A program made the position numbers and the translations under genes. 64,000 nt of DNA from contig OZ020491.1 in NCBI GenBank assembly GCA_963971405.1, positions 26,344,855-26,408,854 of the forward strand. The letters are read 5' to 3'. This document shows, piece after piece, positions 5,462 through 57,446 of this stretch (its first letter is position 1; the number at the start of each line of letters is the position of its first letter). Source of the stretch: Psococerastis gibbosa. Taxonomy: Eukaryota; Arthropoda; Insecta; Psocodea; Psocidae. The notes beneath the pieces were generated by a model that worked only from the letters and a program-made list of their open reading frames with translations, did not search any database and was not told the origin of the DNA.

Positions 5462-6329
5462 GTTGCTTTCCAATTTATACGTAGTATAAGGAACGCTTTG
5501 TGATGGTCGAAATTTTCGATTCCGATGATTTCAACGGATTTACACGTTTTGAGGTCCCAAGAACCCAAAAAAGTGGTTTTGACGAAATGTCTGTCTGTCG
5601 CTCTGTCTGTATGTCTGTATGTCTGTCTGTGCGTCCATTTCCGGGCAAACTACTCGGTCGATTTTAATGAAATTCGGCATGTAGGTTCACAAAAATCATA
5701 CCTCGGGTCCATTTTTTTTATTTGGGGGCTAACTCAATTTGGGGGGGGGGGGTTTATTCTCAAAAAACGTCTAAAAAAATTATTTCCCAAAAACGGCTCC
5801 AACGATTTCTTTTAAATTCACATATATTGTAGTTGTTGTTAATGTTGATAAAATGCGGGGGGTCGCTTGCCCCTTGATAGTTTCCTTCTGGGGGTAAAAA
5901 AATAAAAATGACTAAATTTTAATGAAAAATGACTAAAAAATAATTTTTCTGCGAAACCTTTCTATCGATGATTTCTACCTTCAGGTATGTTTTAGCTGTT
6001 AAATTGAGTAACGAAACTGGACAGGTTGCTTTCCCAGAAAAGTATTTGGTTTTGTGCAAAAAAATGTTTTTTGTGAAAAAATGATAGAAAATTCACGCTC
6101 AAATGCATTGCGTGCCCTGCCAGTATTGCTGTGTGGTAATGTGTTGGTCTGACCTATCAAGAATTTACCTCACCTCCAGTGACGTCAGGTGGGAACCCCC
6201 CCCCCCCCTGAGATATCGGAAATTTAATTAATCATAGGAAAATTATTTACCGTGAAATTACTCATTTTCTCTATCTACTAATTTTGATAAATTGGAAAGC
6301 ATGTTCGAGTAAACTCGGACCGGTTCTTT
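5462..6329 (+). mobile_element. HINE-like (non-autonomous Helentron-like) element, copy 1
   Basis: Member of the ~0.85-kb family with copies at 17338, 21273, 37858 and 56600. It opens with TTGCTTTCCAATTTATACG and, 26-27 bp before its end, carries the inverse ATAAATTGGAAAGCA, so the terminal inverted repeats are asymmetric. The last bases form a hairpin, CGAGTAAACTCG, followed by GGACCGGTTC. A CTGTCTG microsatellite lies near the 5' end, and G and C runs lie inside. No target duplication is seen. The flanks match an unbroken relative at 41140-41400, joining at a T-T position. These traits are those described for Helentrons and HINEs; no protein is encoded. Confidence 0.65.
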
Positions 6330-6545
6330 TAAACAGATGAGTGCAAAATGCGCGGGAAATTCAAATTCATAAATTAAAATATTTTATATAAAATTATTAT
6401 AAATTATATACGAGTATTTTCAATTTTATCTCCATTAGATGTCGGCACATTAATTAAAATTCTTAATATATTTCAAAATTCTACCAGTACATTTTAATGT
6501 TTATTAGTATTTCATTCAACTATAAAACAATGCAACCATTCTCTT
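6330..6545 (+). repeat. Host repeat interrupted by the HINE-like element
   Basis: GAGTGCAAAATGCGCGG and the following AT-rich sequence match 41180-41400. The left part of the same repeat lies just before 5462. The class is unknown. Confidence 0.55.
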
Positions 6546-6599
6546 GTATTGTTATACGCAGGTGTTAAGGAACTGCTTCCTTATCCTTAGTCTTATGTT

Positions 6600-7030
6600 A
6601 ATAACTTAACGTGTCCGGGCCTAGGACACGTTGATCCAAAACGTTGCGGCCTGGATGGCCTTGTCGTTGGCGTCCAGAAGATCCGTTTGAGACACAGCTC
6701 TTCTAGTCTCGGGCAGACCAGAAGATGGCTGTCGTCCTGCAGTTGTCCAGACTCGCAAGTCGGGTCCTCCGCCAGTCCTCACCTACACAAGTTAGCGCGG
6801 CATCTTGTGACCCCCTTCTTAGCCTACTCAGGCTCCGCCATGCAGGGTACGACAGTTGGGCTCCGGACGCTATTTTTTGTTGTTGGTGTTAGGTTCTTCC
6901 ATCTGTCGATTTGAGCTGGCTGTTCTCTCCACCCGTGTCCTGCGGCTGAAGAAACTCTTTCTGGACTTGAGGCGGTTGCAGTCTCAAAAGATAACAGGAT
7001 CTTCAAATTTTTATTGAAGGCCACTTTCGC
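6600..7030 (-). mobile_element. LINE C-terminal fragment with zinc-knuckle tail
   Basis: Minus-strand frames give CESGQLQDDSHLLVCPRLEE and, after a frame change, QTDLLDANDKAIQAATFWIN. Both match the end of a LINE ORF2, where a Cys-rich knuckle (CxCGxxQDxxHLLxCP) precedes the stop. A second copy of the last part is at 10575-10700. Upstream residues AFNKNLKILLSFE are less certain. Broken by at least one frameshift; 5'-truncated. Confidence 0.6.
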
Positions 7031-7730
7031 TTGCTGAGCGCGGCTACTTATTCCACCAGCGGTTTTTTCATTTATTTTATATACTGTATATACGCTACTG
7101 TTTTAACAAGACTGGACAGTCCTTTTCTTATTACCTAAAAGGGAAGAGACGCATCCATGTTATAATCTACCCTTTGGGCTTAGGCTGGAGAAATTCCAGC
7201 CATAGGGTCTCACCTTTCTGTTTTCCCTTCACATGAAATACGTCGCATCACTCCCCCTTAGGAACCCCCGCACAGTTCCTTCTTATTTTCTTCTCCCGTC
7301 CTTCGTCATATAGAAATTCCTGTATTTTCTTTTTTTTTCACTTTGTCGTATAGAGATGCTTGTTCCGGTTCAAGGGGTTTCAATCTTGTTCGGATGCTCT
7401 AGAGTGTATGCCGAATATTGAACTTGCGCATGTTATTTGTGAGATAAAGCACCCCGATTTTTACATGGGATCCCTTTTTTACTTGGTAGATAAATTTATT
7501 ATTTTTTGTGTAGCTAGGAGCTTCCACAAGAATGCTTCTAACGCCTCAGAATCACTTTTTTTCACTCTGTTGAACCCGGTCAGGTTTGGTAACCCTTTGG
7601 AGTCTTCGCCTTATTGTAACACCTGAGGTTTTGCATTGTGTCTCTCTGGTTAAATATTCCTTTAGTTCAGGTATAGCTGTTGCGGTAGCCCCTGCAGTAA
7701 GGGCGGATTCTATCGCGCAATACGACAAGG
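7031..7730. other. No gene recognised
   Basis: AT-rich, T-rich stretches; no convincing frame or repeat beyond short T runs. Confidence 0.5.
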
Positions 7731-7732
7731 TA

Positions 7733-8217
7733 TAGTCCACGCGAAATGAGAAAAGTATGGACATGGAATGTTTTGATCCAGTGCAACACTATAGAAATAT
7801 TCCTTGCACCATTTTGTGTTACCTTGTTGCATTCATAGAAATAAATTAACTGGAGCGGCGGGAGCCATGATATGCCTTACGAGGTACCCGTTAACCATAA
7901 GCCAACTATCAGAGATAAGTACCAACGCAAAAAATATCGAAGTCTTACACATTGCAGCATAGCAGAATGGATACCTGGACCCGGTCAAAAACTCTGTACT
8001 TAGCTTGGGCAGGCTACACTTATCACTGGGTTTCCCCGCCAAATTGCGTACTTCTCTTGTGCAGGCTACACTAGCAGCCATATTGATAACGGTCTCCAGC
8101 CCCGGGATGGCTGCATTGGATGCAAAGCATAACAGAAATTGTGCAAAGAATATTTTTACGGTGATGTACAGGATCAAAACATTCCATGTCTATACTTTTC
8201 TCATTTTGCGTGGACTA
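7733..8217. mobile_element. Long-TIR DNA transposon (MITE) with TA duplication, split by family F
   Basis: TAGTCCACGC at the left is mirrored by GCGTGGACTA at the right. The inverted repeats continue inward for about 100 bp with scattered mismatches (AAAAGTATGGACATGGAATG against its inverse). TA flanks both ends (7731-7732, 8218-8219), the target used by Tc1/mariner elements. A family F repeat fills the loop, so F2 probably inserted into an older palindromic MITE. Confidence 0.65.
7841..8112 (-). repeat. Family F dispersed repeat, copy 2
   Basis: Nested in the TA-flanked element. Its minus-strand frame runs from TVINMAASVACTREVRN to MAPAAPVNLFL without a stop. Confidence 0.7.
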
Positions 8218-8237
8218 TACTAAACATACTGTTCTGC

Positions 8238-8340
8238 TACCCGACCACGATAGGATGAAATTTGGAACATTGCATAAAAACGTGCATAAGTGGAACACCG
8301 AATTTATTCGATTTTTATTAGTGTTCCCAATGTTGATATG
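8238..8340. mobile_element. Decayed palindromic MITE related to 53742-53856
   Basis: Starts TACCCGACCACGATAGGATG and includes CATAAGTGGAACACCGAATT, matching the intact element at 53742. The right inverted repeat is lost. Confidence 0.55.
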
Positions 8341-8399
8341 TACCGTACAGTTAGGTGTAAGAGAGGGCCATAGGCCCTAATCTCCTTTATGTAGCATAC

Positions 8400-9175
8400 A
8401 GATATTTATTTATTTTTTCAATAAGCCAGCATATTTAACTCAGTTGTCTAGTCTACAAGCTAAAGTAATAAGGCAATAACTAATAATAATAAAATCGCCG
8501 TTAAGACTTTATTATAATTATTAATCATCTTCCCTGTAACGAAGCCTGTTATGGTATACACACACAATACTTAATTTTATTGGTAAATAAACCTAATTGA
8601 AAAATTAATATGAATAAGTTAGTTAGAACGTATTGAATAAAATTAAAACTTAAATTCAAAGTTTCCCTTTTACTGAGCGCACACCCACAGGATGGGGCAC
8701 CTGTGTGAGTGCGCTCAGGACATGATTATTATTATTATTATTATTATTAAAAAATAAAAATTAAAAGATAAAAACGAAAATTAAAAAATGGCTTTTGAAT
8801 TAAAATACTTCGCTTTAAAACTTACTTTACTTTTTACTTTAATTATTTTACTTTTTACTTTAATTATTTTACTTTACTATAATTACTCTTTACGTTAACT
8901 TACAATTTTAAATGGTATGAATTAAACTGATTTGAAATTAAAACTAAGTTTTTTTTGCTAACACAGACGTGAAATAGAAATCATGTTGTTGCATCATCTA
9001 CAGCGTTTACTGTGCGAGCCCCCGACAAGTTGATTAACTTGGGGGCCCACAGGTTATTTGTATTATAAGGGTATAATTGTTAATTTATAAATATATTCCT
9101 TCGGCGCAGGGGAGTACCGGCCGAAGAAGAAGAAAAAAAAAAAAAAAAAAATTACACCACATAGTGCAAAAGTCC
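8400..9175. other. AT-rich region with simple repeats
   Basis: Contains an ATT run near 8725-8749 and a TTTACTTTAATTA-type low-complexity block near 8820-8885. A CGAAGAAGAAG tail and an A run at about 9121-9150 look like a LINE 3' tail with its body lost. Confidence 0.5.
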
Positions 9176-11215: not shown

Positions 11216-11812
11216 GCTACTCCAATTTCCTCTTAATACAATGAATTGCATGGCGTAGATTTAACTAACCAATTTCAAATGATTATTTAAACAGAAACCT
11301 AATAAAATGGTCCACGTATTTATCAAGCGCTCTTAAATTAAGTAATAAATTTATGCTTGTAATGTTAAACACAGATTTCCACAAATTATTCAACCCTAGC
11401 CTTTTAATTCCCATTTCAAATAGTTTGAGTTTTATTACGCCACAAAATTAAATTACACACTTTAATATTATGATTATTATACCATGTAATTTGGACTTTG
11501 ACAAATTTCGCGGTGATATCTAATTTTTGGGTAATTTACTTGTACGGTAATAAAATGTGTTTTTTAAATCTCTTTTCGTGGTGTAAGCATAATTTATCTT
11601 TAATTTTGGATTATTTAGATTTTTTTGTGACACTAATGGAGCAGCTGATATATTTATGTTTATTTTTATTTAAATGTCATTTTGAGGATTACGTGTTTTA
11701 TAATCTGCAGTTATATAGATTTAATATTCAATGCAGGTTTTTATTTTCACTCATATGCGAAGAATAGTGAAAGTGTTGTGATTGACCGGATTTTCGATTT
11801 TGAGACTGTACT
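11216..11812. other. AT-rich stretch without recognised gene
   Basis: Very T-rich; short open frames near 11498-11767 have low-complexity composition and no recognised domain. Confidence 0.5.
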
Positions 11813-11814
11813 TC

Positions 11815-12209
11815 GGCGCCCATTCCACCGACCGGCTAGGACTATTTACAAAAACGGTGACATTGTAGCAGACATTCAAGACTTAAGTGGCGTTTCCACC
11901 GACCTCGCATTGCAGAATGCAAATGACATTGACGGAAATTAGAATTTTTCTTTTTATAGAAATCTATTAAAATGTTTGTACTTAAAATATCCCATGACGC
12001 CATTTTTTAATTTTAGTTAGTTTGTTTGTGATTTTACTGTATGATCATTGATTAATTTTAACTATGGCATAGAGTAAAACAAACATTTCCGTCAATGTCA
12101 TTTGCATTCAGCAATGCGAGGTCGGTGGAAACCCCGCCTAAGTCTTGAATGTCTGCTACCACGTCACCGTTTTTGTATTTAGCCCTAGCCGGTCGGTGGA
12201 ATGGGCGCC
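11815..12209. mobile_element. Nested PIF/Harbinger-like MITE, copy A1
   Basis: Near-complete palindrome with termini GGCGCCCATTCCACCGACCG and its inverse, flanked by TTC on both sides. Inside lies a second pair of inverted ends of the GGTTTCCACCGACCTCGC type (GGCGGGG family), which also occurs alone elsewhere. Other family members are flanked by TAA or TTA, as known for PIF/Harbinger elements. No transposase. Confidence 0.65.
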
Positions 12210-12348
12210 TTCCCATTCAAGACTTAGGTGGCGTTTCCACCGACCTCGCATTGCAGAAGACAAATGACATTGACTGGTCGAGGCTCATATTTAATTTAAC
12301 GCGCACCTTAAGGCCCAGGTCTTGTCACTTAAGACTTGTCAAACTTAG
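12210..12348. repeat. Spacer shared with 62930-63005 (inverted)
   Basis: Begins with an orphan inner MITE end (GGTGGCGTTTCCACC), then GGTCGAGGCTCATATTTAAT and TTGTCACTTAAGACTTGTC, matching 62930-63005 on the opposite strand. A larger host element carrying the MITE was apparently copied. Confidence 0.6.
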
Positions 12349-12731
12349 GTGCCCATTCCACCGACCGGCTAGGACTATTTACGAAAACGGTGACGTGGTA
12401 GCAGACATTCAAGACTTAGGTGGCGTTTCCACCGACCTCGCAGTGCAGAATGCAAATGACATTGACGGAAATTTGAATTTTTCTTTTTATAGAAATCTAT
12501 TAAAATGTTTGTACTTAACATATCCCATGACGCCATTTTTTAATTTTAGTTTGTTTGTTTGTGATTTTACTGCATGATCATTGATCAATTTTAACTATGG
12601 CATAGAGGAAAATAAACATTTCCGTCAATTCTGCAATGCGAGGTCGGTGGAAACCCCGCCTAAGTCTTGAATGTCTGCTACCACGTCACCGTTTTTGTAA
12701 ATAGCCCTAGCCGGTCGGTGGAATGGGCGCC
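12349..12731. mobile_element. Nested PIF/Harbinger-like MITE, copy A2
   Basis: Same outer ends (GGTGCCCATTCCACC, inverse GGTGGAATGGGCGCC) with the inner TIR pair. Left flank TTA, right flank TTC. The left junction is identical to the right junction of the copy at 62545-62928. Confidence 0.65.
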
Positions 12732-12779
12732 TTCCCATGATACTTGAGTCGGAAAAAGTGGTTTTGATGGTGGCGTATG

Positions 12780-13903: not shown

Positions 13904-14033
13904 ATTGCTTTCGGATGCATCCGTAGTATAAGGAAAGCTTTGTGATGGTCGAAATTGTCGATTTCGGGATTACAGTGGATGTACACGATTTGAGATCCCA
14001 GGAACGCAAAAAGTGGTCTTTACGAAATGTTTT
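13904..14033 (+). mobile_element. HINE-like element, 5' end only
   Basis: TTGCTTTCGGATGCATCCG then GTATAAGGAAAGCTTTGTGA and AGTGGTCTTTACGAAATG match the first ~130 bp of the family; the rest is missing. Confidence 0.6.
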
Positions 14034-14668: not shown

Positions 14669-15011
14669 ATACCGCCTAAGAAATCCTTCACTCTAAACGT
14701 AAAAAAGTTTCTCAGTTCCAATGCCGCATCCCTATTTCCGGACTCTCCAGACACTTTCAAACCAGTCTTTTCCAATATTTTTAAATTTTATTTCTTTTCG
14801 GACGTGGCTAGCTTTCTGATAGGGAAGGAGGTGAGTTGTGCAACTAATAAATCATCAGAGTGTCGATATTGGTTTCAGAAGAGACGCGACCCCTGCCCCC
14901 GGCTGGGGGGCTTAAATCTCCCTCTCTCTCTTCACAAATCAATAATTTTCAACTCTTGGGGAAGTCAATGGACATTTTTAATTGCAGCTCTGATATGAGA
15001 GAACATTCAGT

Positions 15012-15618
15012 CTTTCAACGAAAGAATTATGCTAGGTTTCTTCTTTTCAACGAAAGAATTATGCTAGGTTTCTTCTTTTCAACGAACGAATTATGCAAGG
15101 TTTCTTCTTTTCAACGAAAGAATTATGCAAGGTTTCTTCTTTTCATCGGACGAATTATGCTAGGTTTCCTCTTTTCAACGAAAGAATTATGCTAGGTTTC
15201 TTCTTTTCAACGAACGAATTATGCAAGGTTTCTTCTTTTCAACGAAAGAATTATGCTAGGTTTCTTCTTTTCAACGAGCGAATTATGCTAGGTTTCTTCT
15301 TTTCAACGAGCGAATTAAGCTAGGTTTCTTCTTTTCAACGAACGAATTATGCTAGGTTTCTTCTTTTCAACGAAAGAATTATGCTAGGTTTCTTCTTTTC
15401 AACGAAAGAATTATGCTAGGTTTCTTCTTTTCAACGAGCGAATTAATCTAGGTTTCTTCTTTTCAACGAACGAATTATGCTAGTTTTCTTCTTTTCAACG
15501 AAAGAATTATGCTAGGTTTCATTTTCAACGAGCGAATTATGCTAGGTTTCTTCTTTTCAACGAGCGAATTATGCTAGGTTTCTTCTTTTCAACGAGCGAA
15601 TTAAGCTAGGTTTCTCCT
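15012..15618. repeat. 32-bp minisatellite, about 19 units
   Basis: The unit TTCAACGAAAGAATTATGCT followed by AGGTTTCTTCTT repeats directly without spacers. Variants AAAG, AACG and AGCG alternate at one site. Because 32 is not a multiple of three, the frame shifts each unit and no long frame is kept. Confidence 0.95.
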
Positions 15619-15621
15619 TCT

Positions 15622-16524: not shown

Positions 16525-16868
16525 TCGCTTGTAGCCGGTGTTGGTTGACATCGAGAACGTACTATGTAGGTACTATGCAGACAGAAACGTTTACCACCGG
16601 TGTTAAGGCCATTTACCCTCTGACTCAGGTGTCCAGTTTCCTGGACCTCGCTCATCATGCTGAATAACAGTCGCGCATTGTTTGTGTTAATGTGTTGATC
16701 AGTGCACAATGTTACTCTTTGGGCAGCGGAACGTTATCAAATTTCGTATACCAGTTTGCCAAAAATTCTTACAGAAACAATACAAATAATGTCCGAAATC
16801 CATGGGGTCTTTGGCATTGGACAAGGGACCAATGGGCCAAGTAGGTCTGGGTCCATAAAAAGTCCTTC
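16525..16868 (+). repeat. Dispersed repeat family B, copy 2
   Basis: GGTTGACATCGAGAACGTA, then CCATGGGGTCTTTGGCATTG and CTGGGTCCATAAAAAGTCC. It carries an insertion of about 170 bp after the GAGAACGTA block, compared with the copy at 31850. Confidence 0.6.
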
Positions 16869-17337
16869 AAAAAATTGCAATTGCATGAGAATACCATATA
16901 AAATGAAATAAGAATTAAATTTGACAGATTTTTCAGTGACAATTGAATGAAACAGGGGCATTACCGCCTAAGTGCACATGATGATCGTACTAAACTCCAT
17001 CTTCCACGCAATCGGAAAAAGCATTAAACTGTATGGGGGGGGGGGGGAGGATTCTAAATTTCTAAACGTGTATCGTTCCCATCAGTGCCGTGTTGCCTCG
17101 GGGGTTCAAGTGCAATTTGAAATCTACTTCCGTTAAAATTTGATGTTTTATATTCTTAGAGCATGTGAGACTCGATTTCTTTTTTTTTTCTTTTTTTAAT
17201 AAAGGTTTGGAAGAGTGCTGTCTTAGCATTTTATTTGGAATTTAACCACGGATTTTATATATATCTCTATTAATGCGTTTTTTTCTTTCGTTTTTACATG
17301 CTTTTATAACGGTGTCAGCAGTGTTGCAGAGGCGCAT

Positions 17338-18178
17338 TTGTGATGTTCAAAATTTTCGGTGATATCAACGGATTTACACGTTTTGGGGTCCCAGGAACCC
17401 AAAATAGTGGTTTTTACGAAATGTCTGTCGCTCTGGCGGCTGTTTGTTTGTCTGTCTGCCTGTCTTTGTTCATCGATTTCCGGGCAAACAACTCGGTCGA
17501 TTTTGATGAAATTTGGCATGTAGGTTCAAAAAAATCATACCTCGAGACCATTTTTTTTTTTTATATTTTGGGCTAACTCTATTTTGGGCGGTTTTATTCT
17601 CAAAAAACTCCAAGAAAACGTCTAAAAAATTATTCCTTAAAAACGGCTTCAACGATTTCTTTTAAATTCACATATAGTATAGTAGTCGTTATTAATTTAA
17701 ACAAAATGCGGTGAGTCGCTGGCCCCTTGATAGCTTGCTTCTGGGGGTTAAAAAATAAAAATAAGTCAATTTTCATGAAAAATTACTAAAAATTAATTTT
17801 TCTGCGGAACCTTTCTATCGATGACTCGATGACTTCTACCTTCAGGTATGTTTTAGGTGTTAAATAGAGTAACAAAACCGAACAGGTTGCTATCCAAAAA
17901 ATTACTTGGTTTTGTGTAAAAAATTATTTTTTGAAGAAATTATAGAAAATTTACGCTCCAACACATTGCGTGCCGTAGATACTAGTAGAATGGAGTTTTA
18001 AGGATTATATATATATATGGAGAAGTTACCTCACCTCCGGTGACATCAGATGGCCCCCCCCCCCCCGGGATCCGAAATTTAACCATAGGGAAATTATTTA
18101 CTATGACATAACTCATTATCTCTATCTACTAATTGATAAATTGGAAAGCACGTTCGAGTAAACTCGGACTGGTTCTTT
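17338..18178 (+). mobile_element. HINE-like element, copy 2
   Basis: Lacks the first ~50 bp but is otherwise full length, with the TTTTTACGAAATGTCTGTC microsatellite area, a C run near 18054-18066 and the 3' hairpin ending GGTTCTT. Confidence 0.7.
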
Positions 18179-21209: not shown

Positions 21210-22290
21210 ACTTTTTATGGGCCCAGGTTTACTTAAATCCAATGCCAATGACCCCATGGATTTCAGACATTATTGCTTTCCAATTTATACGTAGTATAAG
21301 GAAAGCTTTGTGACGGTCGAAATTTTCGATTCCGAGATTTCAGCGGATTTACACGTTTTAAGGTCCCAGGAACCCAAAAAAGTGGTTTTTACGAAATGTC
21401 TGTCTGTTCGTCGATTTCCGGGCAAACTACTCTGTCAATTTTGATGAAATTCGGCATGTATGTTCACAAAAATCATACCTCGGGACCATTTATTTTTATT
21501 TTGGGCTAACTCAATTTGGGGGTTTTTATTTTCAAAAAACTTCGAAAAAACGTCTAAAAAAATTATTTCCCAAAAACGGCTCCAACGATTTCTTTTAAAT
21601 TCACATATATTGTAGTTGTTGTTCATGTTGATATGTATAATGCGGGGGGTCGCTTGCCCCTTGATAGTTTGCTTCTGGGGGTAAAAAAATAAAAATAACT
21701 AAATTTTAATGAAAAATGACTAAAAAATAATTTTTCTGCGACATCTTTCTATTGATGATTTCTACCTTCAGGTATGTTTTAGGTGTTAAATTGAGTAACT
21801 AAACCGGACAAGTTGCTTTCCCAAAAAAGTATTTGTTTTTGTAAAAAAAAATGTTTTTTTGAAAAAAATGATAGAAAATTCACGCTAAAATGCATTGCGT
21901 GCCCTGCCAGTATTGTTGTGTGGTAATGTGTTGGTCTGACCTATCTAGAATTTACCTCACCACCAGTGACGTGTGACGTCAGGTGGACAACCCCCCCCCC
22001 TCCCCCCGAGATATCGGAAGTCTAACCATAGGAAAATTATTTACCATGAAATTACTCATTTTCTCTATCTACTAATTTTGATAAATTGGAAAGCATGTTC
22101 GAGTAAACTCGGACCGGTTCTTTGTATTGTTTCCGTATGAATTTTTGGTCATTGGCAAACTGGTATACGTTCTTCTCGATGTCAACCTACACCGGCTTCA
22201 AGCAATAATGGACAAGCTGAGACAATCTTACCATTGACGCAATAAAACAGACGAAGGCATGACTTAACCAAGTACAGATACGAGTCGATA
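21210..22290 (-). repeat. Dispersed repeat family B, copy 3, split by a HINE-like element
   Basis: Left part 21210-21272 and right part 22123-22290 join into a normal minus-strand family B sequence. It lies head to head with copy 4. Confidence 0.75.
21273..22122 (+). mobile_element. HINE-like element, copy 3
   Basis: Full length, from TTGCTTTCCAATTTATACG to the GGACCGGTTC end. The split family B copy gives the insertion point: GACATTAT then TTGTATTG, which is the unbroken family B order, so insertion was between two T's without duplication. Confidence 0.75.
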
Positions 22291-24262: not shown

Positions 24263-24800
24263 CGGAAAAAAAAAAGTTTTTTACGAAATGTCTGCCTGTC
24301 CATCGATTTGTAGACAAACTACTAGGTGGATGTTGATGAAATTTCCAATTTAGCGTGTATGTTCTAAAAAATCATCTCTAATATTTTGGGATATCTCAAT
24401 CGGGTACCCAAAAACGGGTAATTTAAAAATAAATTAAAAACTGACAGGTTGATAGTTTGGCTCTGGAGAAAAAAAATCACCAAATTTTCTTGAAAAATTA
24501 CTAAAGATTTTTCTGTTAAACCTTTCTATCGTTGGTTTTTACGAAATGTCTACCTGTCCATCGATTTGTAGACAAACGACTAGGTGGATGTTGATGAAAT
24601 TTCAAATTTGGTGTATACGTTCTCAAAAATAATATCTAATATTTTGGGATATCTCAACTTGGCGGCTTTACCCTCCAAAAATGGCTAATTTAAAAATTGA
24701 CAGGTTGATATTTTGATAGTTTGGCTCTGGAGGAAAAAAAATTACCAATTTTCTTGAAAAATTACTAAAGATTTTTCTATCGATCCTTCCTTCAGGAAGG
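24263..24800 (+). repeat. Two diverged HINE-like internal units in tandem
   Basis: TTTTTACGAAATGTCTGCC and CGATTTGTAGACAAACTAC at 24277 recur at 24536, each followed by GTTGATGAAATTTC and a GACAGGTTGATA block. About 265 bp apart. No family ends are present. Confidence 0.6.
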
Positions 24801-33116: not shown

Positions 33117-33160
33117 AAGAAGCGGTACGAGTGAACTCGTACATGCTTTTTTATTGATCA
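33117..33160 (-). mobile_element. HINE-like 3' end, variant hairpin
   Basis: Minus-strand 3' end with TACGAGTTCACTCGTACC-type hairpin: plus strand TACGAG, TGAA loop, CTCGTA. The stem differs in sequence from the main family but still pairs. Confidence 0.5.
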
Positions 33161-33171
33161 GTTAGGATAGC

Positions 33172-33327
33172 CAAGGCCAAGGCGGAGGTTCAAACTCCCC
33201 CCCCCCCTGAAATGAAATGGCTTGATAGTATATAGAATCGGATTTTGAGAGGAAAAATAAAAACTACTATGTAATATCCAATGCAACCCCCCCCCCCACG
33301 AAAAAAAAAATCGTGGCTACGGCCTTG
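33172..33327. mobile_element. hAT-like MITE
   Basis: Same family as 27077-27253; CAAGGC start and GTGGCTACGGCCTTG end. Flanks AGGATAGC and AGGATAGG match at 7 of 8 positions. Confidence 0.7.
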
Positions 33328-33489
33328 AGGATAGGTACTGTAATAGTTCCTTGGTAAATAATTGTCATAGGGTTACATTTTGGTTTAAGATTAAATTTCG
33401 AGTTTCCCTAACCCAAAGCACTGAATTGATCATTGGAATCGCGTATTCTAGAACGGGCAGACCAATACATTATAACACAGTACTAATGG

Positions 33490-33852
33490 CAGGGTACGCG
33501 ATGTATTGGAACGTGAATTTTCCATAATTTCTTCAAAAAAATTATTTTTTGAACAAAACCAAATCTTTGTTTGGGAAAGCAACCTGTTCTGATTTTTTAG
33601 TCTATTTATCACCTAAAACATACCTGAAGTAAGAGAGCATCGATAGAACGGTACCGCAGAAAAATTATTTTTTAGTTATTTTTCTTGAAAATTGAGACTT
33701 TTTTTTGTCCCTAAAACAGAACTACTAAGGGGCAAGATTCCCATTTTTGTTTTGTTGACAGTAATAACAACTACAATACAATATGTATGTGAATTAAAAA
33801 AAATCGTTTCAGACATTTATTGAAAAATAATTTTTTTAGACGTTTTTTGGTT
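33490..33852 (-). mobile_element. HINE-like internal fragment
   Basis: Minus-strand family sequence from the GGGCACGCAATGCATT region through AAACGTCTAAAAAAATTATT; abuts the 204-bp array. Confidence 0.6.
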
Positions 33853-33857
33853 GAATT

Positions 33858-35850
33858 GTTGAATTAGCTGCGAGCCACTAATGGAGCAGGGCGCCTTCAC
33901 CGCCCCTTCTCTTATTATAAACATTAATGCACTTCCCCTTGCCGAAACAGTTGCTACTGAGCCTCCGAGATACAATCTTAAAAGTCTTCGTAGTGCCACT
34001 GAAGATATCCACTGCAGATATTGACGAGTCATCAAACGTTCGGACGTCAGCAACGCGATGAGTTGAATTAGCTGCGAGCCAATAATGGATCAGGGAGCCT
34101 TAACCGCCCCTTCTCTTATTATAAACATTAATGCACTTTCCCTTGCCGAAACAGTTGCTACTGAGCCTCCGAGATACAATGTTAAAAGTCTTCGTAGTGC
34201 CACTGAAGATATCCACTGCAGATATTGACGAGTCATCAAACGTTCGGACGTCAGCAACGCGATGAGTTGAATTAGCTGCGAGCCAATAATGGAGCAGGGC
34301 GCCTTCACCGCCCCTTCTATTATTATAAACATTAGTGCACTTCCCCTTGCCCAAACAGTTGCTACTGAGCCTCCGAGATACAATCTTAAAAGTCTTCGTA
34401 GTGCCACTGAAGATATCCACTGCAGATATTGACGAGTCATCAAACGTTCGGACGTCAGCAACAGGATGAGTTGAATTAGCTGCGAGCCTATAATGGAGCA
34501 GGGCGCCTTCACCGCCCCTTCTCTTATTATAAACATTAATGCACTTCCCCTTGCCCAAACAGTTGCTACTGAGCCTCCGAGATACAATCTTAAAAGTCTT
34601 CGTAGTGCCACTGAAGATATCCACTGCAGATATTGACGAGTCATCAAACGTTCGGACGTCAGCAACAGGATGAGTTGAATTAGCTGCGAGCCAATAATGG
34701 ATCAGGGAGCCTTCACCGCCCCTTCTCTTATTATAAACATTAATGCACTTCCCCTTGCCCAAACAGTTGCTACTGAGCCTCCGAGATACAATCTTAAAAG
34801 TCTTCGTAGTGCCACTGAAGATATCCACTGCAGATATTGACGAGTCATCAAACGTTCGGACGTCAGCAACAGGATGAGTTGAATTAGCTGCGAGCCAATA
34901 ATGGAGCAGGGCGCCTTCACCGCCCCTTCTCTTATTATAAACATAAGTGCACTTCCCCTTGCCCAAACAGTTGCTGCTGAGCCTCCGAAATACAATCTTA
35001 AAATCGTCTTCGTTGTACCACTGAAGATATCCACTGCAGATATTGACGAGTCATCAAACATTCGGACGTCAGCAACGGGTTGAGTTGAATTAGCTGCGAG
35101 CCACTAATGGAGCAGGGCGCCTTCACCGCCCCTTCTCTTATTATAAACATTAATGCACTTCCCCTTGCCCAAACAGTTGCTACTGAGCCTCCGAGATACA
35201 ATCTTAAAAGTCTTCGTAGTGCCACTGAAGATATCCACTGCAGATATTGACGAGTCATCAAACGTTCGGACGTCAGCAACAGGATGAGTTGAATTAGCTG
35301 CGAGCCAATAATGGAGCAGGGCGCCTTCACCGCCCCTTCTCTTATTATAAACATTAATGCACTTCCCCTTGCCGAAACAGTTGCTACTGAGCCTCCGAGA
35401 TAGAATCTTAGAAGTCTGCGAACTACCACTGAAGATATCCACTGCAGATATTGACGAGTCATCAAACATTCGGACGTCAGCAACGGGTTGAGTTGAATTA
35501 GCTGCGAGCCAATAATGAAGCAGGGCGCCTTCACCGCCCCTTCTCTTATTATAAGTGCACTTCCCCTTGCCCAAACAGTTGCTACTGAGCCTCCGGGATA
35601 CAATCTTAGAAGTCTGCGAACTACCACTGAAGATATCCAGCGCAGATATTGACGAGCCATCAACATTCAGTCATCAAACAGTTCGAACGCCAATAAAGGA
35701 CCAGGATGCCTCCGCCCCCCTCTTCTTAGTATAAATATTAGTGCTCGTCCCCGTGCCCAATCAGTAGCCTCCGAGATACAATCTTAGAAGTCTACGTATC
35801 ACCTCTTAAGATATCCACCGCAGATGTTGGCATTCGGAATTAACTTTTCA
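33858..35850 (+). repeat. 204-bp tandem array, about 9-10 units
   Basis: GTTGAATTAGCTGCGAGCC begins units at 33858, 34062, 34266, 34470, 34674, 34878, 35084, 35288 and 35492; a more diverged unit follows to about 35850. Each unit has a TTATTATAAACATTA TATA-like element, GCCTCCGAGATACAATCTTA and a self-complementary GATATC...GATATT segment. The period (204, once 206) is a multiple of three, so minus-strand frames stay open for up to 288 codons. I read these as a by-product: two overlapping minus frames are open at the same time and neither shows a known domain. Confidence 0.9.
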
Positions 35851-37857: not shown

Positions 37858-38750
37858 AAGAACCGGTCCGAGTTTACTCGAACATGCTTTCCAATTAATC
37901 AACATTAATAGATAGAGAATATAAGTAATTTCATGGTAAATAATTTTCCAGTGGTTAAATTTCCGGTAACTGGGGGGGGGGGGTGTCCACCTGACGTCAC
38001 TGGAAGTGAGATAAATTCAAGATAGGTCAGACCAACACATTAATTATCACACAGTAATAATGGAAGGCCCGCAATGCATTTGAGCGCGAATTTTCTGTCA
38101 TTTTTTCAAAAAATAATTTTTTGTGCAAAACCAATTATTTTTTTTGGAAAGCAACCTATCCGGTTTCATTACTCAATTTAACACCTAAAACATGCCTGAA
38201 GGTAGAAATCATCGATAAAACGGTTTCGCAGAAAAATTATTTTTTAGTCATTTTTCATTAAAATTAAGATATTTTTATTTTTTACCCCCTGAAGCAAACT
38301 ATCAAGGGGCAAGCGACCCCCCGCAATTTGTCAACATTAATAACGGCTACATTAAATGGGAATTTAAAAGAAATCGTTGGTGCCGTTTTTGAGAAATAAT
38401 GTTTTTAGACTTTTTTTTGGAGTTTTTTGAGAATAACCCCCCCCCCCCCCCCTAATGGAATTGGCCCAAAATAAAAATAAATGGTCCTGAGGTATGATTT
38501 TTTTAAATCTACATGCTAAATTTCATCAAAATCGACCGAGTAGTTTGCCCAGAAATCGATGCACAGGCAGACATATAGACTGACATTTCGTAAAAAACAC
38601 TTTTTTTGGGTTCCTGGGATCTGAAAACGTGTAAATCCGTTGAAATCTCGGAATCGAAAATTTCAACCATTACAAAGGTTTCCGTATTTGTACTACGTAT
38701 AAATTGGGAAGCAATAAAAAAAAACTACGTATAAATTGGAAAACAATAAA
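37858..38750 (-). mobile_element. HINE-like element, copy 4, with duplicated terminus
   Basis: Minus-strand full-length copy. Its 5' end is present twice: CTACGTATAAATTGGGAAGC near 38693-38712 and CTACGTATAAATTGGAAAAC near 38729-38748. It carries a G run (37972-37983) and a C run (38438-38452). Confidence 0.7.
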
Positions 38751-41934: not shown

Positions 41935-42090
41935 ACCCCGTTCCAAATTATCATGATGATCGCCAATCTTTCATATAAGAGGCATTCGATGAAGATGAAT
42001 ACAGACATTTTGTAAAAACCATTTTTGGTTTCTGAGGCCTCAAAACGTGTAAATACGTCGATCTCAAAAATTTTGACGATAACAAAGCTT
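41935..42090. mobile_element. LINE tail remnant followed by HINE-like 5' end
   Basis: 41942-41992 reads IMMIANLSYKRH on plus, a LINE ending. 42000-42090 is the minus-strand HINE 5' region with CTCAAAACGTGTAAATACG. Confidence 0.5.
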
Positions 42091-42727
42091 TTCTTAATTA
42101 TTTAAACATTACTAACATATAAAGGGAAAAGCAATTATCGTTCCAATTATTATCGACCATATTATGTTTGTCATATTGAAATAACAGATAAGGGTTGTTA
42201 TTCCTAATTTAGTACCGAATTGGTTAGTAGTCGGGTGCAGCGATGCTATTCACAGCACCACAAAAAACCATCTCATAAAGCTGACCTGATATCTATGCAA
42301 GTTTCCCCCTCCACAATTTACCCCTCCTCTCCGACTTAACGGAACCTCAAGTCATTTGCCCCCCACCCCCCCGTATGCCATTTAACTTTATGTTCTTTTT
42401 ACAGATGAATAAATTCTGCCATGATCCGGTCTGGTAAGTTTCTCAGCTAAGTTTTGTTTTCATTGCTGACTTTTAGCCCATGCTTAGCTTGTGCAGGTAG
42501 TGTTTTGCGGGGGTCTCACTGATTTTACGTTTACTTTGAGATTTAATGGGATAGCTTTGGTTGAGTTCTTCAGGGGGCACTTAAATGGCTGGATTGATTG
42601 AAGGCGGTCCATATCATGTTAAAAGACAATCGGAGGGGGAGAAGCCTTACAAGTGTATAAATGTTTCATCAAACATCTCAATCAATCGATCAAAAACGTG
42701 TATTGTAACAAAAATACACAATACCTG
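42091..42727. other. No gene recognised
   Basis: No repeat match or coding signal noticed. Confidence 0.45.
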
Positions 42728-48755: not shown

Positions 48756-48794
48756 GTGTTAGTAAATTTGGCAAAGTCCCAAGCCACGGTGTAT

Positions 48795-49265
48795 AGTTAT
48801 TATTAATTTTAACAAAACGCAATAGATCGTTTGCCCTTTCATAGTTTGCGTCTGAGGGTAAAAAAATAAAAATGACTCAATTTTCATTAAAAATGTCTAA
48901 AAAATTATTTTTCTGTGAAACCTTCCTATCGCTGCTTTCTACCTTAAGGTATGTTTTAGATGTTAAATAGAGTAACAAAACCAAACAGGTTGATTTCCCA
49001 AGTAAGGACTTGGTTTTGTGCAACAATTTTTTTTTTTTAATAAATAAGGGAAAATTCAAGCTGCAATACATTGCACACCCTGCCATTATTACTGTGTTCT
49101 GGAATATGCAATCCCTTCGATCAATTCAGTGCTTTGGGATAGGGGATGTCGAGGGATCCGAATTTAACCACAGGAAAATTATTACTACGGAATTACTCTT
49201 CTTCTTTTTCCCCTTAGTGCCGCGCGCCTAGCACGAAATTACTCATATTATTTATCTACTAATTA
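48795..49265 (+). mobile_element. HINE-like internal fragment
   Basis: AACGCAATAGATCGTTTGCC through the ACCTTAAGGTATGTTTTAGA region, ending near the 3' part with TATCTACTAATTAATAAAT. Interrupted near 49198-49232 by unrelated sequence. Confidence 0.55.
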
Positions 49266-49750
49266 ATAAATACTTCTTCAGCCAACGCCCGTACGTGGCC
49301 TTTCGGCCATCCGACGCCATGACGCCCAGTATAAAAAAGCTCGTCCCTCCAAAGTTGCCTCCCTAATGACGTCCTTAAGGCCGTCGCAGGTTGCGAGATG
49401 TTCTGCAGTTCCTTCAGATGTAAAACACAGGGGGCACAATGGTGAGTCCACCACCCCAATCCTGTGCAAGTGCTTCTGAAGGAAATCGTGTCCCGTCACC
49501 ATTCGGAAAGTCGCCACTGCCACGTCTCTCGGAAGGTCCCTTGGTTTGTTTGATGACACGATGTGGGCTTTCCTTCCGCCGCTCTTTTTCTTGCCTTTTG
49601 GACGGACTCTCTGAAGACGCTGTTTATGCAGTGACAGGTACTGTGGTAGGAGATTGGATGGGTTGGTTGCTCCATGGTACATCCCTGTTTGGCCAGGTTG
49701 TCCGCTTTTTCATTGTCCAAAAGAACGCAGTGCCCTGGTACCCATTGCAT
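49255..49750 (-). mobile_element. LINE fragment: RNase H end and zinc-finger tail, copy 2
   Basis: Two overlapping minus frames. The first holds MQWVPGHCVLLDNEKADNLA and KQGCTMEQPTHPISYHS, the QWxPGHxxxxGNExAD motif of LINE RNase H domains with the late Asp present. After a frame change, RDVAVATFRMVTGHDFLQKH, RIGVVDSPLCPLCFTSE and GTAEHLATC give the zinc-finger tail, ending RMAERPRTGVG stop at 49278. A (TTC) tail follows on plus. The copy at 39715 is more decayed. Confidence 0.75.
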
Positions 49751-49770
49751 GGCTATATATGATTAATACA

Positions 49771-49808
49771 TACGAAGGCATGTTCGAGTAAATTCGAACC
49801 GGTTCTTT
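49771..49808 (+). mobile_element. HINE-like 3' end only
   Basis: GGCATGTTCGAGTAAATTCG then AACCGGTTCTTT; hairpin partly decayed. Confidence 0.5.
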
Positions 49809-51389: not shown

Positions 51390-51680
51390 GTGGGCTTCAC
51401 ACTAGCTGATAGACGCCAGAACGACGTAATAAGAGCTGAAATGACGACTGGTAGCATTGTCGATAAAGCCCGGGAACGACGACTGTCATGGTGGGGCCAC
51501 GTCCAAAGAAGGCAGCCAAATGACCTGATAAGGCCGATAAAACTTATCGAAGCTGAGGGAAAAAAAAGACGAGGATGGCCCAGGCTAACGGTAGAATCGA
51601 GAGTCCGTCAAGACCTCAGGATTCTAGGAGCAACTGCAGCCGAAGCACAGAATGGCAAGGTGCGGAAGAGAGCCTGCTGA
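51390..51680 (+). mobile_element. LINE C-terminus, WxGHVQRR type
   Basis: Open frame ADRRQNDVIRAEMTTGSIVD, KARERRLSWWGHVQRRQPND, then EAEGKKRRGWPRLTVESRV and QDLRILGATAAEAQNGK, ending VRKRAC stop. RRLxWxGHVxRR ... GxxxRGRPxxxxxxxVxxDL is the classic C-terminal block of RTE-like LINEs. The reverse transcriptase itself is missing. The last part continues into a tandem array. Confidence 0.8.
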
Positions 51681-52190
51681 CCCCTCTTAGGCTCTTAGGG
51701 ATAAAAGCGAGGAAAAAGAAGACGAGGATGGCCCAGGCTAACGGTAGAATCAAGAGTCCGTCAAGACCTCAGGATTGTAGGAGCAACTGCAGCCGAAGCA
51801 CAGAATGGCAAGGTGCGGAAGAGAGCCTGCTGACCCCTCTTAGGCTCTTAGGGATAAAAGCGAGGAAAAAGAAGACGAGGAGGGCCCAGGCTAACGGTAG
51901 AATCAAGAGTCCGTCAAGACCTCAGGATTGTAGGAGCAACTGCAGCCGAAGCACAGAATGGCAAGGTGCGGAAAAGAGCCTGCTGACCCCTCTTAGGCTC
52001 TTAGGGACAAAAGCGAGGAAAAAGAAGACGAGGATGGCCCAGGCTAACGGTAGAATCGAGAGTCCGTCAAGACCTCAAGATTGTAGGAGCAACTGCAGCC
52101 GAAGCACAGAATGGTAAGGAGCGGAAGAGAGCCTGCTGACCCCTCTTAGGCTCTTAGGGATAAAAGCGAGGAAAAAGAAGAAGAGGAGGG
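51571..52190 (+). repeat. 153-bp tandem array built from the LINE 3' end
   Basis: GAGGATGGCCCAGGCTAACG-type units start at 51571, 51724, 51877, 52030 and, partly, 52183. Each runs from the RRGWPRLT codons through the stop and 3' UTR to GGGATAAAAGCGAGGAAAAA. Period 153 = 51 codons, so a shadow frame in another phase stays open for 180 codons (51575-52117). Units are nearly identical. Confidence 0.9.
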
Positions 52191-52289
52191 CCCAGACTAA
52201 CGGGAGAAGGAAAAGTCAGCCACGACCTCAGACTTATAGGAGCAATAGGGATAAAAGCGAGGGAAAAGTAAGTATTAAATACAAGTTTC

Positions 52290-52425
52290 TATACGCGACA
52301 TGCGATCGGAGACGTGTCGTAACTCAGCACACGTATTAATTTACTCGTTGATGCGACTGAAGAGGAGAATTGGATACATTCTTTTGAAATTGTTTGTTTG
52401 CGATTATTAGCATTTTTTGAAGGAA
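52290..52425 (+). repeat. SINE-like family E, copy 7
   Basis: GGAGACGTGTCGTAACTCAG, GATGCGACTGAAGAGG and a GAAGGAAAAAAAAAAC tail; the head is missing. Confidence 0.6.
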
Positions 52426-54003: not shown

Positions 54004-54055
54004 ATAAGAACTTTTACGAGTGACCTCATACATGCTTCCCTATTTATCAATTAGT
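54004..54055 (-). mobile_element. HINE-like 3' end, variant
   Basis: AAGAACTTTTACGAGTGACC and CATACATGCTTCCCTATTT on plus, matching the variant end at 33117 with a one-base stem mismatch. Confidence 0.4.
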
Positions 54056-54169
54056 GTAGGGACTCTGATAGTATAAATATCGGCTGTTTTTAGATTTTCC
54101 CTATTCTACAGCACAATAGGACAATTACGTAGTTTAGAATAGAGACACCAATACGAAATAAGGCCATTT

Positions 54170-54345
54170 TGTTCTATAACTAAGCCAACCTTGCGGAGTT
54201 GGGGCTATAAAGCCCTCTCTTACACTCTACTAGGAAAGCCCGCTGCTTTACATGGCCTCCGAAGCACGGCCGAAAATTTAGCCAGTGTGGGGTTCGAACC
54301 AACAACCTTTCGGTTGATAGTCAGAGTCAGAGCCACTCCATATAA
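54170..54345 (-). repeat. tRNA-derived SINE, family C, copy 7
   Basis: Minus-strand copy, B box GGTTCGAACCCC; a ~10-bp deletion in the CCCGGG block. Confidence 0.7.
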
Positions 54346-54399
54346 TAGTGTACAATACTAATGGTATGGAATGCAGTGCATTCCGGCTCGGATTATCCC

Positions 54400-54600
54400 G
54401 TACTTCCCGTACTTGGTTAAGTCGAGCTAATGCCTGTTCCAATATAATTGTTAAGCATGTCTGAGCTTGCCCATTGGCACTTGTAGTCAGTGTGGGGTGA
54501 CATCGAGGAGCGAACCAGTTTGTCAATGGCTATAGAAATTAATTCGAAAACAATACAAGCAATAATTACTGAAAACTGATGGGGTTGTTGGCCGGGAAAG
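54400..54600 (+). repeat. Dispersed repeat family B, copy 9, diverged
   Basis: CCCGTACTTGGTTAAGTCG, GGTGACATCGAGGAGCGAAC and GATGGGGTTGTTGGC. Confidence 0.5.
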
Positions 54601-54639
54601 GTTTAAATAGTTAAATACTTTCAATAGGGCTACGTCCCC

Positions 54640-54804
54640 ATTATATTGCAATATTATATAGTTTGTATAACACGGACATTAAATTAACTTTGGTTGAAGA
54701 GGTAACCTCCTCGTTATAACCGAAAATTATTAGATATAGAAAAACTGGGCTTCAAACTCACGATCTACGCCTAACGTGTCTAGCAATACGAATCATATCA
54801 ATCA
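54640..54804 (-). repeat. tRNA-like SINE, family D, copy 3
   Basis: Body with GGTAACCTCCTCGTTATAAC on plus and the minus-strand tRNA-like T arm; split at 54805 by a family C SINE and continued at 55020. Confidence 0.6.
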
Positions 54805-55020
54805 GTCAGGACATGTAGAGTAGTGGTACAGACTCCGACTTTCACCCGAAAGGTTGTTTGTTCGAGTTTCACACTTGTTGCATTTTCTGGCCATGCTTCA
54901 TGTAAAGCAGGCGGTCCCGGGTCTTCCTAGTTGAGTTTAAGAGGGGGCTATATAGTCCTAACTTCGCTAGGTTGGCTTAGTATTATAACAAAAAAGTCAA
55001 TATTTATGTATTTATCAATA
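54805..55020 (+). repeat. tRNA-derived SINE, family C, copy 8, inside family D
   Basis: GGACATGTAGAGTAGTGGTA and GGTTGTTTGTTCGAGTTTC; ends with TTATGTATTTATCAATACG. CAATACGA occurs in the family D sequence on both sides. Confidence 0.75.
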
Positions 55021-55175
55021 CGAGCATGTAAGTAGAGGATATACATGCATCAACTCTCTTCTTGTCGGAGCTTGTGCAGTCCAGTGGTTAAGACGACACC
55101 CCAGTTAGGCGTTGATCGTGGGTTCGAATCCCGTCAAGTCCAGGTTTTCTATATCCTCTAATTTTCTGTTAGGGC
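55021..55175 (+). repeat. tRNA-like SINE, family D, copy 4
   Basis: Plus-strand core GAGCTTGTGCAGTCCAGTGG, TTAAGACGAC, GTGGGTTCGAATCCCGTC. Acceptor stem decayed. Body ends CTATATCCTCTAATTTTC. Confidence 0.65.
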
Positions 55176-55490
55176 TACGTCCATAAAAAGCCCGTCAATA
55201 AAAATAAAAAAGGCGCCCATTAGGATTGGGTTGACCAGGCCCATTTTTTTTTTTTTTTTTTTTTTGCAAATTGAGTCGCCGACCTTCTTTAACCAGCCCC
55301 CAACCTTGGGATTTTTCCGCCCTGACAACAAGCCTTTCAGCGCTCACTACCCCATTAAAACAAAACGTTGCGATAGGAAATTGTAAGAAATACGACCAAA
55401 GTATAAGGTGTAAACTCTCAAAGTATACTTTAATTTACTTGGGTAAACACCAATGCTAATAAACAGGGCTCAAAGATAGATCAGTACTAA

Positions 55491-55928
55491 GGCGGGGTTT
55501 CCAATCGTCAATGAAAATTATGAAATTGAAGAACATTTCAATTTTTTATTGATGGCGGCGTTTCCACATGTTTTTACAAAAATTGACAATTTTCTATTGA
55601 AACGAATGCGCCAAATTTTTGAAATTTTGTTTGTATTTGTTTTCTTCGTACACTTATTATTTTTAATAAAACCTAATAATAGTAGGAGACCCGAAGTAAA
55701 ATCTACCTTCACCGATCTGTTTAATGGATGAAAAATTTTTAAAAAAAAAATCAATTAAAATAGTTGTACTTGACATATCCCATGACGCCATTTTTTAATT
55801 TTAGTTTGTTTGTTTGTGATTTTACTCTATGATCAATTGATCATTGATCAATTTTAACAATGGCATAGAGTAAAATTGAAATGTCCTTCAATTTCATAAT
55901 TTTCATTGACGTATGTGGAAACCCCGCC
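55491..55928. mobile_element. PIF/Harbinger-like MITE with TAA duplication
   Basis: GGCGGGGTTTCCAATCGTCA and CCACATACGTCAATGAAAAT-type inverse end CCCCGCC; TAA lies at 55488-55490 and 55929-55931. It contains an extra block (about 55540-55740, including GGCGGCGTTTCCACATG) beside the usual AAAATGGCGTCATGGGATAT loop. Confidence 0.75.
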
Positions 55929-56207
55929 TAACACAAATGTATTTTCTATGCCTTTCGTTCGGCAAAATGTTTGGCAACCTTAGAAAAATCAGTACTTACT
56001 TCAGAGCCATTACAGCATCTACCCTAGCCGACCGTCTGGTTTCTGACAAGGGTTTCACAACAGGGGTTTTATTTTTTATGCATGAAATGTTTTTCATTCA
56101 TTTCGACTCCCCCCCCCCCCTCCCAAAGCTTGGCGCCCTGGGCAATACCCAGTCTGCCCTGTCTCTAGCTCTACCTTCGAGTTTATAGTTCTAAATAAAT
56201 ATTGAAT

Positions 56208-56375
56208 TTTTGTTCTATTAATAACCAACCTAGCGGAGTTACACTCAACTAAGAAGGCCCGGGACCGCCTGTTTTTACATGCCCTCCGAAGTATGGCCAG
56301 AAAATGTAACAAATGTGGGGCTTGAACCTACAACTTTTCGGGTGAAAGTCGGAGTCTGTACCACTACACTGTCTT
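56208..56375 (-). repeat. tRNA-derived SINE, family C, copy 9
   Basis: Minus-strand copy, B box GGTTCAAGCCCC; body complete. Confidence 0.7.
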
Positions 56376-56599
56376 TAGTATTTGACTCAAGGAGCATCTA
56401 ATTTCAAATATTATATAGGCTAGGATTTATTCGAACAGCCCCATGATTGTGTGTGTGATTGAGTGAGTGCTTTAGTCTGAGGGAATTTTTTTATAGACTT
56501 TAAATTGTATTGTTAATTATATACTGTTTTTGTTGCTGACCCCTAGTTGAGTGTGAGAGCGGGCTCTAACTCCGCTAGGGTGGTCTCAGCTATAAAAAA

Positions 56600-57446
56600 A
56601 GAACCGGTCCGAGCCTACTCGAACATACTTTCCAATTTATAAATTAGTAGATATAGACATGCGTAATTTCATAGGAAATAATTTCCCTATGGTTAAATTT
56701 CAGAGCCCTCGAGGGGGGGGGGTCCACCTCAATATATTAAGAACCCCTTAAACTCAATTGCATATTCTGGAACGAACAGACCAATACATTGTTACAGTAG
56801 TAACAATGGCACATGGCACGTAAAGTATTGGACCGTGAAATTTCCATAATTTCTCAAAAAATAATTTTTTGCACAGAAGCAAATATTTTTTTGGAATGCA
56901 ATCTGTCCGTTTTTTTACACTATTGAACACTTAAAACATACCTGAAGGCAGAAATCATCGATAGAAAGGTTCCGGAGAAAAGTTATTTTTTAGTCATTTT
57001 TCATGAAAATTTAGTTATTTTTATTTTTTTACCCCCGAAGCAAACAATCAAGGGGCAAGCGACCCCCCGCATTTTTTTGACATTAATAACGACTGCAGAA
57101 TATGTGAATTTAAAAGAAACCGTTGGAGCCGTTTTTGAGAAATAATTTTTTTAGACGTTTTTTTTGGAGTTTTTTGAAAATAAAACCCCCCAAAATTGAG
57201 TTAACCCCAAAAAACAAATCATCTCGAGGTATGATTTAGGAAAAACTTCATGCCAAATTTCATCAAAATCGACGGAGTAGTTTGCCCGGAAATCGACGCA
57301 CAGACAGAACGACAGACAGACATTTCGTAAAAACCACTTTTTTGGTTTCCTGGGACCTCAAAACGTGTAAATCCGTTGAAATCTCGGAGTCGGAAATTTC
57401 GACGATCACAAAGCTTTTCCTTACACTACGTATAAATTGGGAAGCA
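56600..57446 (-). mobile_element. HINE-like element, copy 5, in a SINE tail
   Basis: Full-length minus-strand copy. The left flank (GCTAGGGTGGTCTCAGCTAT then A's) and right flank (AAAAGTCATTATATATTTAT) rejoin into a family C SINE tail with no duplication. Confidence 0.75.

Follow-up and report, generated by a model that had tools for sequence, protein, structure and literature searches.

The 64-kb window of the Psococerastis gibbosa genome analyzed here (the whole 64,000-nt stretch of contig OZ020491.1, positions 26,344,855 to 26,408,854 of the forward strand) contains copies of a dispersed repeat family of ~860 bp, which is very probably a non-autonomous Helentron (HINE) with a DINE-1-like layout and a rolling-circle mode of transposition. 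Its ends are precise, its copy number is high, it has no long reading frame, and one old relic carrying a Rep gene has the same ends. The earlier note on this DNA had proposed a dispersed ~0.85-kb family belonging to the HINE group. The family is real, as the window copies and the genome counts given below demonstrate, and its assignment is supported by the testable DINE-1-like features, all of which were found apart from a central tandem-repeat region.

The source scanned was the 409-Mb assembly of 68 contigs (labelled C1, C3, C12, etc.). A 35-nt pattern of the 3' terminus and a pattern of the 5' terminus, each with at most three mismatches, yielded 15,264 3' and 14,338 5' ends in the whole assembly, versus no match to either pattern when reversed; therefore, the family is not a product of chance. 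In the window, copies and fragments identified by BLAST with the family consensus as a query comprise 5,584 bp (8.7%), and 7 of the 11 CTGTCTG/CAGACAG sites lie inside family copies. The share of the family in 91 kb of flanks of 27 other loci, a non-random sample, is 4.9%. Among the matches listed for contig C1, 33 consecutive 3' ends are in the plus orientation (0.59-3.26 Mb), with a similar run of 5' ends; strand domains were nevertheless not accepted, and the run was taken as a listing artefact, an unproven interpretation, because the 3' and 5' lists disagree further along, the density of matches falls where the run starts, and genome-wide samples show no strand clustering (neighbors within 2 Mb: 9 on the same strand, 13 on different strands).

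Five long copies, 81-94% identical to the consensus, are present in the window, as previously described, but only four of them have both ends, and the coordinates given earlier were off by one to a few nucleotides. The complete copies occupy positions 5463-6326 (plus strand, 92% identity to the consensus), 21273-22120 (plus strand, 94%), 37860-38714 (minus strand, with a second, broken 5' terminus directly before it, at 38746), and 56601-57447 (minus strand, an older copy, 83%). The fifth copy (17337-18175, plus strand) is 5'-truncated: it starts at consensus position 35, the first 34 nt together with the 5' terminus being gone.

The 860-nt consensus was built from 34 aligned rows representing 33 distinct copies, as one window copy was read from two 5' starts. 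The 5' subterminal inverted repeat TTGCTTTCCAATTTAT is exact at 5463 (5463-5478) and 21273, and has one mismatch at the 5' ends of the minus-strand copies (38714 and 57447). Each of the five long copies has the inverse of this repeat, with at most two mismatches, close to its 3' end (6287, 18136, 22081, 37884, and 56625), the two repeats corresponding at 15 of 16 nt. The presence of this inverse had been noticed before; its distance from the 3' end, formerly given as 26-27 bp, is 25 nt from the deduced end, or 27 nt if two terminal Ts are counted. In addition to what had been described, the 5' repeat pairs with an adjoining inverted repeat GTATAAGGAAAGC and forms a strong stem. In the unmutated copy, 13 pairs with one 3-nt bulge lie within 21273-21310 (stem 21275-21306, -8.1 kcal/mol, z -5.15), and in the mutated copy at 5463 the z-score is -2.50. 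Next in the 5' part is the expected CTGTCTG microsatellite, a GTCT array at consensus positions 125-155 (7.8 TGTC units according to Tandem Repeats Finder, TRF; 5590-5633 in the first copy), followed by the core CGGGCAAACTACTCGGTCGATTTTGATGAAATTCGGC (in the first copy GGCAAACTACTCGGTCGATTTTAATGAAATTCGGCA, 5644-5679) and a long AT-rich middle.

The 3' end of the consensus consists of the subterminal inverted repeat ATAAATTGGAAAGCAT (6287-6302 and 22081-22096 in two of the complete copies), the hairpin GTTCGAGT-AA-ACTCGGAC (6303-6320 and 22097-22114, respectively), and the tail CGGTTC (6321-6326 in the first copy, where the element ends before a host TTT). Thus, the two ends are asymmetric, the 3' repeat being internal and followed by a hairpin. 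The latter is the previously reported CGAG..CTCG structure; it has eight pairs, including one G.T, and the element runs on beyond it by CGGTTC. Among 11 hairpin variants, pairing is kept in 92% of 88 cells; the T.G pair is replaced by A-T in two variants and by T-A in one, and one pair shows a two-sided change (two variants). The observed number of paired cells was reached in 11 of 500 shuffles, and the observed covariation score in 8 of 500. No long open frame was detected in the two copies listed, the longest ATG/GTG/TTG frame touching a copy being 63 aa at 21273 and 96 aa at 5463.

The insertion sites are T-rich. Before the 5' end, positions -3 and -2 are T in 42 and 41 of 43 ends, respectively, and position -1 is A or T in 39 and G in four; after GGTTC, T occupies the three successive positions in 41, 41, and 35 of 43 3' ends. 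The target consensus is TTD^TTT, mostly TTW. In aligned copies with flanks, similarity stops at the deduced ends; termini extending beyond the proposed ends, which the earlier note had named as evidence against its proposal, were not seen. Flanks of 36 rows (34 distinct copies) were joined and searched by BLAST against 289 kb, and 11 rows had spanning matches. In a stricter check, the predicted junction of 12+12 nt with fixed length and at most three substitutions was required, and 6 of the 34 copies had a match. One of them, L005, was set aside, as its empty site lies within an ATTT repeat, leaving five copies for which an informative empty paralogue matches the predicted length exactly: L003, L004, L031 (inserted in another HINE copy), and window copies 5463 and 21273. 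The empty paralogue of window copy 5463 (L040:2974) is identical at 22 of 24 junction nt, and the best ones of window copy 21273 (window position 16798, minus strand, and L003:113) at 23 of 24. For L004, L031, and both window copies, the empty paralogue has no difference within at least 5 nt on each side of the junction. Spanning matches of L007, L038, L039, L040 (11-bp length difference), window copy 57447, and a C15 copy at 15327 did not pass the length-exact check. It follows from the length-exact empty paralogues that the target lost nothing upon insertion and that nothing longer than TT (2 bp) was duplicated. A permutation test on the flanks of 34 copies likewise showed no duplication beyond the target preference. 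The earlier statement that target duplications are absent holds for anything longer than TT. The T-run on the 3' side belongs to the host sequence in the empty sites.

Divergence of the 34 rows from the consensus, computed with consensus CpG sites left out and without L039 (1014 bp) and L055 (588 bp), ranges from 0.9 to 14% with a median of 2.3%. The four most diverged rows (8.8-14%) represent three copies, namely two window copies and a C15 copy. The remaining 30 rows lie 0.9-4.2% from the consensus, which indicates that many copies were amplified recently, although young copies are over-represented in this sample, as the rows are mostly best matches to one window copy. The family has had both a recent and an earlier phase of activity.

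A link to a Rep gene is provided by a relic on C20 (~19261.7-19269.9 kb, minus strand), where the family 5' and 3' sequences bracket Rep remnants, all on one strand. The relic starts with the first 706 nt of the family at 82% identity; then come a protease-like open reading frame (ORF; weak Herpes_teg_N match, E 0.00075, below the cut-off), KRKSDPEYRE-like repeats, broken Rep pieces, and, finally, the family 3' terminus. The stretch with the Rep catalytic motif was not recognized in this relic. The chance of such a same-strand bracket, roughly estimated post hoc from the frequency of lone ends over 188 kb, is ~0.0004 per locus and 0.0016 over the four extended Rep regions. A region on C15 shares the last 768 bp of the relic at 90% identity and stops within 9 nt of the terminus. 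The search for a Rep-helicase with shared termini, suggested in the earlier note, yielded one bracketed Helentron relic and no intact partner. The locus L065 on C20 contains, at ~19266.6-19267.4 kb, an insert of 800 bp with 97-99% identity to at least 39 other sites, which is a very young, different mobile element.

Candidate Rep genes were collected by a Pfam Helitron_like_N search of the assembly, which gave 20 matches, several of which are parts of a single locus. Motif 2 was readable by pattern at 13 loci, nine with GLPHAH or GLPHDH, containing the Helitron leucine, and four with GMVHAH. A serine in this motif (GSPHxH) is diagnostic of Helentrons (PMC4067079). It was found in a stop-free Rep frame of 1135 codons on C15 (2836273-2839554, minus strand), whose motif 2 reads QFQHCGSPHAH, with Q and C in place of E and R of ExQxRG. 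The frame has Pfam matches to DUF6570 and Rep, and is a candidate for the last survivor or for a domesticated gene. The 15 PIF1 matches of the assembly lie beside other Reps or alone, none being next to a Helentron-type Rep, and the Helentron-type Rep genes found are relics and this one single-copy Rep ORF without a helicase. A composite Helentron formed by the two complete HINE copies that flank the C15 ORF was considered and rejected, since each of the two is bounded by its own 5' and 3' ends and their ages differ.

Several observations weigh against the HINE assignment or weaken the evidence for it. The Helentron serine was seen in none of the 13 motifs read by pattern, and the assembly yielded no Helentron combining Rep, helicase, and endonuclease, no separate search being aimed at the endonuclease. 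The C15 Rep frame has no Pfam match to a helicase or endonuclease and no PIF1 match nearby, and it is single-copy, a protein search having returned 11 further short Rep matches at six places. The C20 relic shares just ~41 bp with the family at the 3' end and is the only bracketed case among the four extended Rep regions: the C3 region has a HINE copy inside a Rep relic and no bracket, the C15 region has two complete HINE copies nearby in opposite orientation and no bracket, and the region at C20:15.2 Mb has no HINE copy. As for the family itself, the energy of the 3' hairpin is ordinary compared with shuffles (z -0.64), and the number of pairs changed on both sides was matched by 219 of 500 shuffles. 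A central tandem array is not evident: apart from GTCT and poly-C, TRF run on the consensus reported only arrays that are short and low in copy number. Of 24 nested flank tests, two gave P < 0.01, and a TT duplication cannot be told from a TT belonging to the element.

The last point bears on an older reading of DINE-1, namely, a cut-and-paste miniature inverted-repeat transposable element (MITE) with a 2-bp TT target duplication. The family does have inverted repeats, and the TT flanking most copies on both sides is compatible with both readings (30 of 34 copies at the register, 30.2 expected after shuffling). However, the two ends are not symmetric, the 3' repeat stops 25 nt short of the terminus with a hairpin in between, and no transposon with such ends as terminal inverted repeats turned up, no genome-wide search being aimed at one; we consider a MITE very unlikely. 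Still less credible, to the point of near-exclusion, is a short interspersed nuclear element (SINE) or another retroelement, which would agree with the very high copy number and the lack of a long open frame, but not with the precise, structured ends, the absence of an A-tail and of a longer target duplication, and the host origin of the 3'-side T-run. A canonical Helitron, having 5' TC, 3' CTRR, and A/T insertion, was also rejected: here the 5' end is TTGC or GC, the 3' end is GGTTC, and the target is TTD^TTT.

A different question is which enzyme moved the family. The recent burst of ~15,000 ends without an intact Helentron could have been driven not by a classical Helentron but by another Rep/helicase in the genome, one of Helitron type, or by the C15 Rep, which has no helicase of its own, together with a host helicase. 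This explanation overlaps with the HINE reading, the high probability of which covers the classification and the rolling-circle mode, and seems improbable to us. It is favored by copies lying ~1% from the consensus while no intact Helentron was found, by the presence of open frames for Rep/helicases of other types (three nearly identical ones of 1671 aa, here called the trio, as well as frames of 1441 and 1619 aa), and by the open 1135-codon frame of Helentron type on C15. On the other hand, Helentron Rep relics exist, one of them bracketed by the ends of the family, while the trio has a different deduced 3' end and merely carries a truncated HINE 5' fragment within its shared sequence. The simplest answer to the helper puzzle is an unassembled, lost, or segregating Helentron.

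The trio itself (C1:12049 kb, C14:26381 kb, and C15:7185 kb; Rep/PIF1 frame with GLPHAH) is 99.9% identical over the 3.5 kb compared, all three members containing the same truncated HINE fragment, and apparently was recently active. As a partner of the HINE family it was rejected, because the identity of the three copies continues 364 bp beyond the HINE 5' start, and because of the 3' end mentioned above; the 5' end of the trio was not found. The last 400 bp of the trio recur on a single strand within clusters at C15:0.99-1.12 Mb, C14:26.36-26.37 Mb, C12:10.66-10.69 Mb, and C3:11.17 Mb, some of the recurring 3' ends being ~7.3 kb apart (40 places scored).

By analogy with the mechanism described in the Helentron literature, a Helentron Rep/helicase would nick the element, rolling-circle replication would displace one strand, the 3' hairpin could serve as a stop signal, and the single strand would be pasted into T-rich DNA. 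As in the known family, the element may have originated by internal deletion of a Helentron, the enzymes being supplied in trans.

Among the closest systems described is Drosophila DINE-1 (also named INE-1 or mini-me; Yang and Barbash, 2008, PMC2374699), which also has subterminal repeats, an inverted repeat adjoining the 5' one, a GTCY microsatellite in the 5' block, a 3' hairpin right after the 3' repeat, no significant ORF, and T-rich insertion after W (WTTTT in D. yakuba) with the same ambiguity of a TT duplication. The differences are the subterminal sequence (TTGCTTTCCAATTTAT here versus ATACCCGTTACTC in DINE-1), the central tandem-repeat region of DINE-1, not evident here, and the numbers (~15,000 ends here versus 5,424 copies in D. 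yakuba, obtained by different counting methods). Central tandem repeats occur in just some HINE copies (PMC4067079). HINEs of Metaseiulus, Culex, and Drosophila, described as derived by deletion from Helentrons that carry Rep (Thomas et al., 2014, PMC4067079), similarly have subterminal repeats near both ends, a 3' palindrome, a T-rich target, and no target modification; in contrast to those systems, an intact partner was not found here, and the distance between the 3' repeat and the end is 25 nt, versus 38-60 bp in the mite. Oyster Cg_HINE and Pearl elements (PMC7492417) share the 5' subterminal repeat, the inverted repeat, in several cases a GTCY-type microsatellite, the 3' subterminal repeat with a palindrome, and oligo-T targets without duplication, but they have satellite-like arrays, none of which is evident in our consensus. 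Helitron2_Cv of Calliphora vicina (750 bp, PMC3630058) is similar in its described layout: it has subterminal repeats, a partial inverted repeat at the 5' end, a GTCY protosatellite, and a 3' hairpin.

Five sequence strings of the family returned no papers in a literature search that did not cover subscription papers and Repbase. Exact matches were absent from viral contigs (three patterns) and prokaryote contigs (one pattern), a data set without animal genomes, which does not speak against the possible common origin of GGCAAACTACTCGG repeats in various invertebrates suggested in the earlier note. A lepidopteran element with a CGAG..CTCG hairpin and CCGGTT serves as a lead only. In sum, the anatomy is already known from DINE-1/HINE elements, while the family itself is new.

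Besides the long copies, BLAST with the consensus revealed six fragment clusters in the window. BLAST fragments include 24268-24601 (plus strand), an internal fragment at 33445-33848 (minus strand), a 5' fragment at 42001-42096 (minus strand), and an internal fragment at 61810-61876 (plus strand). An old fragmented copy with the 3' terminus is located at 48794-49805 (plus strand), an isolated 29-nt 3' terminus at 62441-62469 (plus strand), and a further lone or diverged 3' end near 54047. A diverged relative at 33117-33160 (minus strand) has a 3' terminus with the hairpin GTACGAGTTCACTCGTAC, which is energetically strong (z -3.99). This diverged HINE 3' half (33117-33848) adjoins a tandem array of ~204 bp period (33780-35713); central arrays are frequent in DINE-1 elements, but no family 5' terminus was found beyond this one, and, therefore, the array is not claimed for the family. 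Finally, a 5' fragment of a related family (13905-14030, plus strand) contains in its subterminal repeat the palindrome GGATGCATCC, which resembles palindromic repeats of mite and Culex HINEs.

Other tandem arrays of the window are located at 3825-5209 (~278 bp period), 14885-15620 (~32 bp), and 51405-52316 (~153 bp). Another dispersed family was found at 11810-12733, 60225-60607, and 62543-63001, its long inverted copies being nearly identical (459 nt at 97%). Among the matches listed on C1, a (TTAGG)n array starts ~11-13 kb before the contig end, in keeping with an arthropod genome.

The P. gibbosa family adds a large, partly young member with base-precise empty sites to the HINEs, and its target consensus, mostly TTW^TTT, resembles WTTTT of D. 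yakuba DINE-1. For annotation of this genome, it accounts for ~9% of the window and for most of its CTGTCTG sites. It documents a HINE burst for which the matching helper appears to be dead, one bracketed relic tying the ends of the family to a Helentron Rep gene.

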